Source of the DNA: Lachnospiraceae bacterium
GTDB taxonomy: Bacteria > Bacillota > Clostridia > Lachnospirales > Lachnospiraceae
Assembly (NCBI GenBank): GCA_022787145.1
Contig: JALFVM010000032.1
Coordinates: forward strand, 1-50,042
DNA length: 50,042 nt
Direction: 5' to 3'
The first letter of the stretch is position 1; each line of letters begins with the position of its first letter. Made by a program: the position numbers and the translations under genes. The notes beneath the pieces were generated by a model, which worked only from the letters and a program-made list of their open reading frames with translations, made no database searches and was not told the DNA's origin. Shown here piece after piece: positions 36,630-41,446 of the stretch.

Positions 36630-36673
36630 ATATGAAACGCAATGTATAATTATTCACGATGGAGGAAGAGAGA

Positions 36674-37429
36674 ATGAAAAAATTAGTTAGTTTGATGTTA
36701 ATCGGTGCTATGGCTGTTTCTTTGGTTGGCTGTGGCGGCAGCAAAAAAGGTGAGACTGTTCAGGAAGGTAAGCTGATCATGGCGACGAATGCAGAGTTCC
36801 CGCCGTATGAGTTTTATGAGGGTGACAAAGTTGTAGGTATCGATGCAGAGATTTCTGCTGCAATTGCTGAAAAATTAGGTCTGGAGCTTCAGATCGAGGA
36901 TATGGCATTTGATGCGATCGTTACTTCTGTAACATCCGGAAAGGCAGATATCGGTGCAGCCGGTATGACAGTAACGGAAGATCGTAAGAAAAACGTAGCG
37001 TTCACAGATACGTATGCAACTGCTTCTCAGGTTGTTATTGTAAAAGAGGGAAGTGATATTAAGACTCCGGATGATCTGACAGGCAAGACCATCGGTGTAC
37101 AGCTTGGTACAACTGGTGATATTTACTGTGGTGACATCGAAGGTGCAACCATCGAGCGTTACAACAAAGGATTTGAGGCAGTACAGTCTCTGCAGACAGA
37201 TAAGGTGGAGGCTGTTGTTATTGATGAGCAGCCTGCAAAAGTATTCGTAGAGCAGAACGAAGGTCTTCAGATTCTTCCTGACAAGTTTACAGAAGAAGAA
37301 TACGCAATTGCGGTAAACAAAGAAAATACAGCTTTAGTAGAGAAGATTAATACAGCTCTCGCTGAACTCAAAGAATCCGGTGAACTGGATAAGATTGTAG
37401 ACAAATATATTTCCGCTGACGCAGAATAG
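36674..37429 (+). CDS. Polar amino acid ABC transporter, substrate-binding lipoprotein
   Basis: The 251-residue lipoprotein has a signal peptide with lipobox LVGC (Cys20), so it is anchored outside the membrane. The SBP family 3 fold is shown by TNAEFPPYEFYEGDKVVGID and the MTVTEDRKKNVAFTDTY segment. GKTIGVQLGTTGD and VIDEQPAKVF complete the ligand cleft. GGAGG (36661-36665) selects ATG 36674 over 36659. It feeds the permease and ATPase that follow. Specificity (glutamine, arginine, cystine or other) cannot be read safely. Confidence 0.92.
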   Translation: MKKLVSLMLIGAMAVSLVGCGGSKKGETVQEGKLIMATNAEFPPYEFYEGDKVVGIDAEISAAIAEKLGLELQIEDMAFDAIVTSVTSGKADIGAAGMTVTEDRKKNVAFTDTYATASQVVIVKEGSDIKTPDDLTGKTIGVQLGTTGDIYCGDIEGATIERYNKGFEAVQSLQTDKVEAVVIDEQPAKVFVEQNEGLQILPDKFTEEEYAIAVNKENTALVEKINTALAELKESGELDKIVDKYISADAE

Positions 37430-37444
37430 GGAGTTTAAACAAGA

Positions 37445-38125
37445 ATGAAAGATGCGATTTATCAAAATCTGATTGCGGGGGACCGCTGGAAATATATTGC
37501 AAACGGACTGGGAGTCACACTCCGGATCACGTTGTTTGCAGTGCTGATCGGAATTGTTCTCGGTTTCCTGGTGGCAGTGGTTCGTTCCACATACGAAAAG
37601 ACACATAAGCTGAAGCTTTTGAATTTGCTCTGTCAGGTTTATCTGACGGTGATTCGCGGAACACCGATGGTCGTACAGCTTTTGATTATGTACTATATTG
37701 TGTTTGTTTCTGTGACAAGCAAGATCATGGTAGCTTCGCTTGCATTTGGAATCAACTCCGGTGCTTATGTTGCTGAGATTATCCGAGGCGGTATCCAGTC
37801 TATTGATAATGGACAGTTTGAGGCAGGAAGAAGTCTGGGATTTAATTATCCGCAGACGATGATTTACATTATTTTGCCGCAGGTATTTAAAAACGTACTT
37901 CCGGCTCTTGCAAATGAGTTTATCGTACTTTTGAAAGAGACTTCCGTGTGCGGTTACATCGCACTGCAGGATCTGACAAAGGGCGGCGATATCATCCGAA
38001 GCCAGACCTATAACGCATATGTGCCGCTGTTTACGGTGGCGCTGATTTATCTGGTTATGGTTATGATCTTTACACAGCTTGTAAAAATACTGGAGAGGAG
38101 GCTGAGGAGCAGTGAGCGCAGATAA
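37445..38125 (+). CDS. Polar amino acid ABC transporter, permease
   Basis: The 226-residue permease has about five helices and belongs to the HisM/GlnP family. The ATPase-docking EAA loop reads [20 protein letters not shown] followed by LPQ near residue 130, preceded by the conserved [11 protein letters not shown] single permease gene suggests a homodimeric channel. The 3' end overlaps the ATPase gene by 14 bp. Confidence 0.93.
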
Positions 38126-38852
38126 ACCTTTAATCCAGGTGCAGAACCTGACGAAAAGCTTCGGTGAATTCAAAGCTCTGAAGAATATTTCACAGAATAT
38201 TTATCCGGGAGAAGTGGTATTTGTGGTTGGACCTTCCGGTTCCGGAAAAAGTACCTTCCTGCGCTGTCTGAACCGATTAGAAGAGCCCACAGAGGGACAT
38301 ATCTTCTTTGACGGAGCAGACATCCTGGACAAGAAAACAAACATTGACAAGCATCGTCAGAAGATGGGAATGGTATTTCAGCATTTCAATCTGTTTCCAC
38401 ATCTGACAATCAAGAAAAATATTACACTTGCTCCTGTGAAACTGAAAATTATGTCACAGGAGGAGGCTGACAAAAAAGCAATGGAACTTCTCGAGAGAGT
38501 TGGTCTTCCGGATAAGGCAGATTCCTATCCGGCCATGCTTTCCGGAGGACAGAAGCAGCGAGTTGCCATTGCACGTGCACTTGCCATGAATCCGGAGGTG
38601 ATGCTGTTTGACGAGCCGACGTCCGCGCTTGATCCGGAGATGGTAGGCGAGGTACTGGAAATCATGGGAGAACTTGCAAAAGCAGGCATGACTATGGTGG
38701 TGGTAACGCATGAGATGGGATTTGCAAAAGAGGTTGCAACGCGCATTCTCTTTATGGCAGATGGGGAAATCAAAGAGGAAAACAATCCGAAAGATTTCTT
38801 TGAAAATCCGCAGCATCCGAGACTGCAGGATTTCCTTTCCAAGGTATTATAA
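38112..38852 (+). CDS. Polar amino acid ABC transporter, ATPase
   Basis: The 246-residue ATPase is GlnQ/HisP-like. Walker A is GPSGSGKST near residue 40, the Q-loop is [13 protein letters not shown], the signature is [15 protein letters not shown], Walker B is [12 protein letters not shown], and the switch is [10 protein letters not shown]. The start is GTG 38112 behind GAGGAG. Translational coupling with the permease is likely. A terminator follows. Confidence 0.94.
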
Positions 38853-39303: not shown

Positions 39304-39342
39304 AATGGGATTTCTGTGAAATGAATTCACAGAAATCCCATT
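39304..39342. other. Perfect 17-bp inverted repeat before the glnA promoter
   Basis: AATGGGATTTCTGTGAA (39304-39320) is followed by a 5-nt spacer and its exact complement (39326-39342). The right arm overlaps the first two bases of the glnA -35 box. There is no T-run on either strand, so it is either a poor terminator of the XRE gene or a protein-binding site controlling glnA. Confidence 0.6.
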
Positions 39343-39369
39343 GACAAAAAAAATAGGTACTGGTATTAT
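39341..39369 (+). promoter_or_regulatory. Promoter of glnA
   Basis: A consensus TTGACA (39341-39346) and TATTAT (39364-39369) with 17 bp spacing place the start near 39376, at the first base of the leader hairpin. Confidence 0.8.
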
Positions 39370-39375
39370 TTTTTT

Positions 39376-39477
39376 AAGGACAAGGGCGTTCTTTTGGATC
39401 ATATTAGAAAATTGCCTTTTATGTGAAAAGTGAAAAGCAATTTTCTAATATGATTTAAGAAGAAAAATGCCCTTTTT
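39376..39477 (+). promoter_or_regulatory. glnA leader: candidate ANTAR-type dual hexaloop with terminator
   Basis: Hairpin P1 pairs AAGGAC (39376-39381) with GTTCTT (39388-39393) around the six-base loop AAGGGC, with A at loop position 1 and G at 4. A weaker P2 can form with loop ATTGCC (39411-39416), also A1/G4. The competing structure is a perfect 18-bp inverted repeat (39398-39415 with 39437-39454). At its base the P1 loop AAGGGC (39382-39387) pairs with GCCCTT (39469-39474), followed by more T, which makes a terminator. The two folds exclude each other. An ANTAR protein is encoded just after glnA. Folding was done by hand. Confidence 0.7.
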
Positions 39478-39519
39478 CTATTTAGAAATATCAACGTACT
39501 GTGATAAGGAGAAATGGGT

Positions 39520-40851
39520 ATGTCAAAATATACAAAGGCAGATATTTTACAATTGATGGAAGAAGAGGATGTGGAATTTGTTCGTCTTCAGTTTACTGAC
39601 ATGTTCGGAATGTTTAAAAACGTGGCAATCACTGCAAGTCAGATGGAAAAGGCATTGAACAATCAGTGCATGTTTGACGGTTCTTCCGTGGATGGTTTTG
39701 TGCGAATTGAGGAGTCCGATATGTTTTTGCATCCGGATTTGGATACCTTTGCAATCTTTCCGTGGAGACCGCAGCAGGGACGTGTGGCAAGACTGATCTG
39801 TGATGTCTACAGATCGAACGGAGAGCCGTTTGAGGGAGATTCCCGCTATATACTGAAACAGCAGGTGGAAAAGGCACGGAAGATGGGATATGAATTCAAT
39901 GTAGGACCAGAGTGCGAATTTTTCCTTTATCACACCGATGATGATGGACTCCCGACAACTTTGACCCATGAAAAGGCCGGCTATTTTGATATGGGGCCGA
40001 TTGACCTTGGAGAAAATGCGCGCCGTGATATGATTCTGACGCTGGAGGATATGGGATTTGAGATTGAGGCATCTCATCATGAGATGGCACCGGCGCAGCA
40101 TGAGATTGATTTTAAATACGAGGATGCAGTGAAGACAGCAGATAACATTATGACATTCAAGCTGGCTGTTAAGACAATCGCGAAGAGACATGGTCTTCAT
40201 GCGACCTTTATGCCAAAGCCAAAGGTGGGAGTATGTGGTTCTGGTATGCACATCAACATGTCTCTGTCCAAAGATGGAAAGAATGCTTTTTATGATGCAA
40301 GCGATGAGCTGGGACTGAGCAGGGAAGCGTATTATTTTATCGGTGGTATTATGAAGCATATGAAAGGTATGACTGCGATTACCAATCAGCTTGTAAATTC
40401 TTATAAACGTTTTGTGCCGGGCTATGAAGCACCGGTATATATTGCATGGTCTGCGAAAAACCGCAGTCCGCTGATTCGTATTCCGGCGGTCAAAGGAGAG
40501 GGAACGAGGATAGAACTGAGAAGTCCGGATCCGGCAGCAAATCCTTATCTGACACTGGCGGTATGTCTGGCAGCAGGTCTGGATGGAATTGAAAACGAGA
40601 TTATGCCTCCGAAGAGTGTGGATCAGAATATCTTTGAGATGTCAAAGGTTGAGAAAAAGGCAGCTAAGATTGAGGCGCTTCCATGCAATCTTCTGGATGC
40701 AGTCCGTGAGCTGGAAAAAGATGAGTTTATCAAGGATGTTCTGGGCGAGCATATGACAGATTTGTATGTGCGTGCGAAGAAGGCAGAGTGGAATGATTAT
40801 ACGATGCAAGTGACAAGCTGGGAAGTAGACCAGTATCTCTACAAATTCTGA
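39520..40851 (+). CDS. glnA: Glutamine synthetase, type I-alpha (GlnA)
   Basis: The 443-residue enzyme joins ammonia to glutamate with ATP to make glutamine. The grasp domain (residues 1-100) includes MFDGSSVDGFVRIEESDM. The catalytic barrel has GPECEFFLY, HHEMAPAQHEIDF, GSGMHINMSL, and NRSPLIRIPA. Length and lack of the adenylylation-site loop place it in the short GSI-alpha class controlled by feedback rather than adenylylation. The ATG at 39520, eight bases after AGGAG, is preferred over 39514. Expression is probably set by the terminator-type leader and the ANTAR protein. Confidence 0.96.
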   Translation: MSKYTKADILQLMEEEDVEFVRLQFTDMFGMFKNVAITASQMEKALNNQCMFDGSSVDGFVRIEESDMFLHPDLDTFAIFPWRPQQGRVARLICDVYRSNGEPFEGDSRYILKQQVEKARKMGYEFNVGPECEFFLYHTDDDGLPTTLTHEKAGYFDMGPIDLGENARRDMILTLEDMGFEIEASHHEMAPAQHEIDFKYEDAVKTADNIMTFKLAVKTIAKRHGLHATFMPKPKVGVCGSGMHINMSLSKDGKNAFYDASDELGLSREAYYFIGGIMKHMKGMTAITNQLVNSYKRFVPGYEAPVYIAWSAKNRSPLIRIPAVKGEGTRIELRSPDPAANPYLTLAVCLAAGLDGIENEIMPPKSVDQNIFEMSKVEKKAAKIEALPCNLLDAVRELEKDEFIKDVLGEHMTDLYVRAKKAEWNDYTMQVTSWEVDQYLYKF

Positions 40852-40897
40852 TGGAAGCCAAAGCAATGAGACTCAGCAGAATAAGGGGAGATGTTGG

Positions 40898-41446
40898 ATG
40901 AGTGGAATTATAGTAGTATTTCCAAAAATTGAAGATGCGAAGAGTATTCGCAATCTCCTGGTGCGTCATGGGTTTGAGGTGACAGCTGTCTGTACGACGG
41001 GAGCGCAGGCACTGTATCAGGCAGATGATATGGGCAGTGGCATTGTTGTATGTGGGTATCGATTCAGTGATATGTTTTATTCACAGCTTCGCCAGTGCCT
41101 TCCAGCGGGGGTTTCCATGCTTCTTCTCGCTTCACAGCGCATACTGGCACAGAAAGAACCAGATGATGTCATGAGCGTGGCAATGCCCTTGAAAGTTCAT
41201 GAATTACTTGATACAATCAATATGATTCAATATTCTGTGGCGCGCAAGCGGAAGAAGAAAAAAGAAAAGCCGAAAGAGCGTGATCCGAGAGAAAAGAAGA
41301 TTATTGATGAAGCAAAAAAACTGCTCATGGAGCGTAATCATATGACAGAAGAAGAGGCTCACCGTTACGTGCAGAAATGCAGCATGGACAGCGGAAACAA
41401 TATGGTGGAGACAGCAGAAATGATTATGAGCATCATGAATCTGTAA
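40898..41446 (+). CDS. ANTAR domain RNA-binding antiterminator (NitR-like)
   Basis: The 182-residue protein has an N-terminal receiver-like domain (residues 1-115), a Lys/Arg-rich linker ([19 protein letters not shown]) and a C-terminal ANTAR domain. The ANTAR domain shows the pattern [20 protein letters not shown] and the following [19 protein letters not shown]. The receiver strand that usually holds the phosphorylated Asp reads [12 protein letters not shown], so the acceptor appears lost. ANTAR proteins bind paired hexaloop hairpins and prevent termination. ANTAR genes beside glnA are known in clostridia, and the leader at 39376 is the likely target. What signals nitrogen status to it is unknown. 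Confidence 0.88.

Follow-up and report, generated by a model that had tools for sequence, protein, structure and literature searches.

A putative single-hexaloop ANTAR attenuator in the glnA leader of Lachnospiraceae

Several ANTAR proteins that act on leader RNAs have been described. For EutV, both hexaloops of the target are reported in PMC3369931 to be needed in vivo, and PMC8934654 describes how a EutV-RNA structure from 2022 led to a new definition of the minimal binding motif, namely one hexaloop. NitR of Clostridium saccharobutylicum (Stutz et al. 2007) is cited in PMC6316151 for antitermination of GS/GOGAT genes under nitrogen limitation. A covariance search from 2012, as outlined in PMC3369931, predicted ANTAR targets before glutamine, glutamate, ammonium-transport and PII genes. 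Elements with one hexaloop would tend to be missed by this published search because it demanded two hairpins. Among the matches listed in our search of open-licence papers, no paper on a one-hexaloop ANTAR leader was found. Here, we analyzed the glnA leader of a Lachnospiraceae bacterium, located in a stretch of 50,042 nucleotides (the window, meaning the whole DNA that was analyzed).

The glnA leader and its surroundings

The gene order in the window is an amino-acid ABC transporter (36659-38852), glnA and a gene for an ANTAR protein (Table 1). As the initial annotation had stated, the ANTAR gene lies directly downstream of glnA, and its product matched PF03861 with 58.3 bits, well above the cut-off of 27.3. 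It was the sole ANTAR match found in this genome. The promoter of glnA is near-consensus, which makes the predicted transcription start at about position 39376 plausible. A 17-pair hairpin at 39304-39342, terminator-like on the minus strand, overlaps the -35 box of this promoter.

Table 1. Positions of predicted features of the glnA locus in the window
Feature	Position	Strand	Details
glnA promoter, sigma-70-type	39341..39369	+	TTGACA 39341-39346, 17 nt spacing, TATTAT 39364-39369; 11/12 matches
P1 hairpin, predicted ANTAR-binding site	39376..39393	+	39376-39381 pairs with 39388-39393; hexaloop AAGGGC 39382-39387 (A1, G4)
Shared strand (P1 loop and P1 3' arm, equal to the 5' base of the terminator)	39382..39393	+	covaries with both partners
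Perfect 18-bp inverted repeat in the apical part of the terminator	39398..39454	+	39398-39415/39437-39454; read from the sequence
P2 candidate, judged not functional	39407..39420	+	39407-39410 with 39417-39420; loop ATTGCC 39411-39416
Terminator 3' base and U-run	39467..39477	+	from folds, pairing conserved; GCCCTT 39469-39474 pairs with the P1 loop
glnA, type I glutamine synthetase	39514..40851	+	TIGR00653 558.5 bits; PF00120 and PF03951
ANTAR gene, predicted regulator	40898..41446	+	pseudo-receiver, long helix, ANTAR domain; Gly53 codon 41054-41056 in place of the phospho-acceptor Asp

A hairpin (P1) with the A1/G4 hexaloop AAGGGC had been noted at the 5' end of the leader and can be read there from the sequence. 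Its six pairs gave a folding energy of -3.6 kcal/mol. The loop had further been proposed to pair with GCCCTT in front of a T-run (TTTTT, 39473-39477, into which GCCCTT continues) and thereby to complete a terminator, and both the fold of the window leader and the conserved pairing in relatives agree with this. The best fold of positions 39376-39485 was the terminator form with -46.6 kcal/mol (z = -9.2 against 200 shuffled sequences, none of which was equally stable); with P1 enforced, the best fold reached -36.3 kcal/mol. Folding of the growing chain suggested that P1 forms first. When the chain ended at about 39421-39439, a transient fold without P1 appeared, in which the P1 loop paired further downstream. 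P1 then re-formed together with the hairpin of the 18-bp inverted repeat, which does not oppose it, and the two coexisted until GCCCTT was transcribed and the terminator took over the P1 loop and the P1 3' arm.

The inverted repeat itself is perfect over 18 bp, as originally described. The idea that it is a mobile repeat was rejected, as the genome contained no second copy; the only other match was its own opposite strand. No Rfam family reached its gathering score at the window leader; the only such hits in the window were two Clostridiales-1 RNAs elsewhere (RF01699; 4043-4205 and 17800-17962, 127.0 and 126.7 bits).

Conservation and covariation in related leaders

A search with the ANTAR protein gave matches in 125 of 150 genomes of the family, 106 of them at full length (hand count), and 100 of 107 full-length places were retrieved as loci. 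In 99 of these 100 loci glnA is located directly upstream of the ANTAR gene, and in the remaining one the contig ends first. The glnA-ANTAR gene pair is thus conserved. We added 80 loci from named genomes, mostly with Lachnospiraceae titles or genera (such as Lactonifactor, Lacrimispora, Hungatella and Blautia), and another 40 from genomes of the class that belong to different families. Usable leaders, 140 nt or longer, came from 97/100 family, 77/80 named and 38/40 outside loci (n = 212; dropped were L058, L049 and L050, L202, L209 and L211, and L237 and L238, respectively). Several glnA genes lie behind another reading frame and have no leader of their own. By eye, this frame is hisA-like in L063, L069, L076, L090, L095 and L109 and gltD-like in L104, L107, L113, L123, L130 and L131; a motif scan detected no separate element in these loci except in L104. 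At positions 193-356 of locus L067, a TwoAYGGAY RNA (RF01731) was found with 80.9 bits.

The motif C[AANGGN]G with at least three stem pairs occurred in 46/99 family leaders and 51/77 named leaders, and a terminator was called automatically in 36 of the 46. Lachnoclostridium phytofermentans (L205) is one cultured relative whose leader has the element. An early strict scan detected 35/96 leaders versus 66/1920 shuffles and missed cases visible by eye. A composition-blind test, whose criterion was a hexaloop stem with a loop able to pair again at the base of a terminator, picked 90/212 leaders as compared with 116/2120 shuffled sequences. Among the 85 distinct hits of this test, loop positions 1, 2 and 4 were largely A (70), A (76) and G (74), and 68 hexaloops carried both A1 and G4, while position 3 was mixed (A 39, G 30, T 11, C 5).

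For an analysis of pairing, leaders were selected by promoter and loop letters only, which makes the selection pairing-free and yielded 145/212 glnA leaders, 127 of them distinct. In this set, none of 500 arm swaps formed P1 pairs 2-4 as often as the real leaders, and the mean over pairs 2-5 was 0.780 versus 0.652 (sd 0.014) in the swaps; pair 1 follows from the selection itself, and for pair 6 the leaders did no better than the swaps (411/500). A six-base loop was closed with at least four pairs in 91/127 distinct leaders. When the loop was set to 3, 4, 5, 7, 8 or 9 bases, only 0-1 of the 127 leaders did so. The closing pairs of the 91 leaders were mainly AC/GU (68) and GC/GU (19); closing pairs are described as sequence-specific for EutV on eutP (PMC3369931). 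These data show a loop of exactly six bases with conserved A1, A2 and G4. A terminator register was found in 106/127 leaders. Because loop positions 4-6 and arm position +1 set this register, pairing at these positions is given. Loop position 3, paired as A-T in 41 and as G-C in 32 leaders, and arm positions +2 to +6 beat all 1000 swaps, whereas loop position 2 was reached by 21/1000 swaps and loop position 1 by all of them.

Covariation was assessed with 51 leaders of glnA, glnN, gltB, amtB and asnB chosen for a clear element. Double-changed cells numbered 37 in P1 (17.0 in shuffles) and 84 in the terminator helix (25.9 in shuffles), and none of 500 shuffles reached either value. Covariation scores of P1 were likewise above the shuffles, but the counts of doubly changed P1 pairs (241/500) and of P1 pair types (126/500) were not. 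The 5' arm of P1 lies outside the terminator and yet covaries with the shared strand. The covariation check proposed for related glnA leaders was hence passed by P1 as well as by the pairing of its loop with GCCCTT, and the suggestion that P1 and the terminator exclude each other, the P1 loop being the terminator base, gained support from the folds and from covariation of both helices. The alignments thus show one shared strand with two alternative pairings, P1 and the terminator helix, both of which covary and are kept by selection.

The same data bear on the possibility that the leader contains an ordinary terminator or a different attenuator, governed by another RNA-binding protein, a riboswitch or a DNA-binding regulator on the palindrome, and that the hexaloop is incidental. 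Plain terminators likewise need an A-tract, a G-C stem and a U-run, and such ordinary needs could partly account for A1/A2 and the G-C pairs. A long palindrome can also be an operator. Covariation of the P1 5' arm outside the terminator and the restriction to a six-base loop speak against an incidental hexaloop, and the palindrome is missing from the leader L033 of the same genus. Apart from the lack of a family at gathering score on the window leader, the leaders of ten loci gave no Rfam match up to an E-value of 1 except miRNA models on the window palindrome, which scored far below their gathering thresholds. We regard this explanation as quite improbable.

The element varied among the leaders, and 67/212 escaped even the selection by promoter and loop letters. 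By eye, leaders of the Hungatella/Lacrimispora group possess promoter and terminator with a G-rich loop region, and no A1/G4 hexaloop was recognized by eye in L041, L042, L142, L144, L154, L155, L160, L191, L201 and L210. The Hungatella-type glnN leaders L278 and L279 display the loop GATGGC. A scan for a loop position 1 other than A returned 11/212 leaders, eight with G1 and three that look spurious. The G1/G4 loops (L047, L077, L128, L162, L184, L216, L226 and L236) may point to altered recognition. The window leader scored weakly with the family model (24.3 bits, E = 0.33) because of its insert.

The question of a second hexaloop

The initial annotation had regarded the leader as a dual-hexaloop switch with a second, weaker hairpin (P2, loop ATTGCC). 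This part of the proposal was not supported. The P2 stem consists of three A-U pairs and one G-U pair and amounts to +2.3 kcal/mol alone. Enforcing P1 and P2 together resulted in -17.1 kcal/mol, about 29 kcal/mol above the best fold. P2 is embedded in the repeat-containing insert that L033 lacks, and 13 nt separate it from P1; linkers of the Enterococcus faecalis eut leaders are given as 5-12 nt, and 14 nt drastically cut induction there (PMC3369931). P2 was rejected as a working hairpin because it is unstable and not conserved. Relatives offered no upstream substitute either: A1/G4 hexaloops with at least four pairs were found upstream of P1 in 4/91 leaders, with 6.2 expected and therefore no excess, and P1 starts 4-12 nt past the -10 box in 41/45 scored leaders.

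Downstream of P1 the picture was different. Within 60 nt, a second A1/G4 hexaloop was present in 22/90 leaders versus 9.3 expected (15 versus 3.9 with at least five pairs), and another scan counted 8/46 versus 2.3. In the stretch before the terminator base, which has a median of 18 nt among relatives and 75 nt in the window, the numbers were 9/106 versus 3.6. This enrichment would fit a version with two loops: in a classical dual-hexaloop leader, P1 would recruit the protein and a second hexaloop, either ATTGCC or of the AAAG[AGCGCC]CTTT type, would be the true antiterminator, in keeping with the need of EutV for both loops in vivo (PMC3369931). Much of the excess, however, was due to hairpins like AAAG[AGCGCC]CTTT, built from the 3' arm of the terminator and the U-run. 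They arise by themselves because this arm is the complement of the conserved P1 arm. Their loop positions 1 and 4 do not seem to be guarded, since at position 4, where either base would pair, A outnumbers G by 6 to 3, and position 1 is unpaired with the 5' arm in 9/51 leaders. Moreover, such a hairpin requires the U-run and therefore would form only after the termination decision. In view of these points, the instability and linker length of the ATTGCC hairpin, and the absence of an upstream excess with P1 so close to the promoter, we judge a dual-hexaloop leader to be rather unlikely. In our judgement, the downstream excess is a by-product of the terminator arm; it is also the main loose end of the single-hexaloop reading.

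Regulator, regulon and relation to known systems

PF03861 was matched in 36/36 relatives of the ANTAR protein, and Pfam Response_reg gave weak matches in three of the 36 at E-values up to 0.01. The protein exhibits a receiver fold that resembles EutV over 180 residues; the other fold matches are general receivers, and AmiR and Rv1626 were absent among the 50 matches listed. Position 53, which aligns with the Asp of Rv1626, is Gly in 84, Ser in 8, Ala in 5, Pro in 2 and Thr in 1 of 100 relatives. The phospho-acceptor Asp of two-component response regulators was found in 0/100. Rather than phosphorylation, a partner or a ligand of the pseudo-receiver would provide the signal input. NCBIfam provided no name for the ANTAR protein, nor for a 150-residue GSIII piece.

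To look for further targets, genomes of the family were searched with the pattern ACAARGGYGTYY-N(9-38)-RCCYTTTT, which occurred in 84/200 of them. The matches listed numbered 104 versus 22 for the reversed pattern (hand counts). Fourteen of the 104 were glnA leaders already sampled, and 40 of the other 90 were inspected. A GSIII (glnN)-type frame of about 700 residues followed 19 of 20 non-glnA matches, which are no random sample because they were picked by eye for alike stems; the exception (L264) is followed by an unrelated frame. GSIII_N scored at one of these glnN places and was found at six more. In a second batch of 20 non-glnA matches, 19 were readable and 15 stood ahead of nitrogen-assimilation genes, namely asnB (1), glnK-amtB (3), amtB (5), gltB (4) and glnN (2), named by Pfam for examples and by likeness for the remainder. 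The other four preceded a Rel-like protein, a peptide-binding protein, a short frame resembling an ATP-grasp start and an aminotransferase. Starting from GSIII genes, an A1/G4 loop in register was detected in 18/29 loci by a scan without shuffles and with looser thresholds than the composition-blind test, and one of the 18 (L276) looks spurious. Ten of these 18 loci carry the stem AAGC/GCTT instead of GAAC/GTTC around the loop. Comparative sequence analysis hence shows that the element recurs before glnN, gltB, amtB/glnK and asnB in relatives, a recurrence that the initial annotation did not cover.

No GSIII match was present in the genome of the window. The family model, whose E-values are rough and several of whose matches in relatives look like junk, pointed to a second site in this genome (contig C133, E = 0.0015) in front of a circularly permuted ATP-grasp gene. 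By eye, two tandem loop-in-terminator elements with the loops AAAGGC and AAAGAT are apparent there (L324, 1384-1555), the first with a weak P1. A third site on contig C113 (E = 0.27) contained no convincing element. In another genome, an element-like match (L355, near 1500; E = 0.017) lies ahead of the gene for CTP synthase, a glutamine user.

The pattern was commoner in genomes with the regulator. It was found in 55/106 genomes with a full-length relative of the ANTAR protein versus 3/25 without a match (P = 0.00025), hand-read values whose contrast could be inflated by incomplete genomes; among genomes whose ANTAR matches were all weak or partial, 5/19 contained it. The element is probably run by a NitR-like pseudo-receiver.

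We consider it probable that the glnA leader is an ANTAR-controlled attenuator with a single hexaloop, belonging to a nitrogen-assimilation regulon. The neighboring ANTAR protein, as the presumed ligand of P1, would hold the hexaloop at the predicted RNA start and allow transcription to continue, and one hexaloop would suffice. Without the protein, the P1 loop and 3' arm would pair with the downstream GCCCTT and close the terminator. By analogy with NitR, binding would lead to read-through and higher expression when nitrogen is scarce. As the direction of control here rests on this analogy, an opposite or different effect has to be weighed, whereby binding would promote termination or affect RNA stability or translation; other ANTAR targets have been proposed to act on translation (PMC8164766). 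Bound P1, however, would hide the loop and arm needed by the terminator, and NitR is described as inducing GS/GOGAT genes by antitermination under nitrogen limitation (PMC6316151), which renders an opposite or different effect highly improbable. Extending the single-hexaloop attenuator to the family, we tentatively put forward that one hexaloop near +1 may be the master switch for GSI, GSIII, GOGAT, Amt/PII and AsnB in Lachnospiraceae and other Clostridia. It might be worked by a kinase-independent, glnA-linked pseudo-receiver ANTAR protein for which one hexaloop suffices, with a sensor outside two-component signaling, perhaps glutamine synthetase itself. If true, a large bacterial family would control its nitrogen regulon at the RNA level, by means of a protein that lacks a phosphorylation site. 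Nature has apparently offered the one-loop version many times, and since such versions seem so frequent, the sufficiency of one hexaloop is directly testable.

The EutV/eut system of E. faecalis shares with the glnA locus the short stem, the A1/G4 hexaloop and closing pairs of the AC/GU type, an antiterminator that excludes an intrinsic terminator, and the receiver-like fold aligning over 180 residues. Unlike the glnA leader, eut leaders are described as having two hexaloops, both needed, and a P1 without terminator overlap (PMC3369931, PMC8934654). In the glnA leader, a single conserved hexaloop close to the predicted start doubles as the base of the terminator, and the protein lacks the phospho-acceptor Asp. 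AmiR of the AmiR-AmiC system of Pseudomonas aeruginosa is likewise an ANTAR protein with a non-phosphorylated pseudo-receiver, controlled in that case by a partner (PMC3369936); it differs in serving amide catabolism and in the dual hexaloops reported for its leader (PMC3369936). The ANTAR regulons predicted in 2012 comprise the same kinds of nitrogen target genes, whereas the underlying model, as given in PMC3369931, requires two A1/G4 hairpins, the terminator overlapping the second. NitR is similar as a clostridial ANTAR protein tied to GS/GOGAT control, a likeness drawn from its description in PMC6316151 only. ANTAR control of clostridial GS/GOGAT (NitR) and two-hairpin ANTAR targets before glutamine and glutamate synthase genes are thus already reported in these sources. 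As far as the open-licence literature shows, the following features are new: an architecture with a single loop that serves as terminator base, the covariation of this architecture, its recurrence before several nitrogen genes in the family, and a phospho-acceptor that the whole glnA-linked group has lost.
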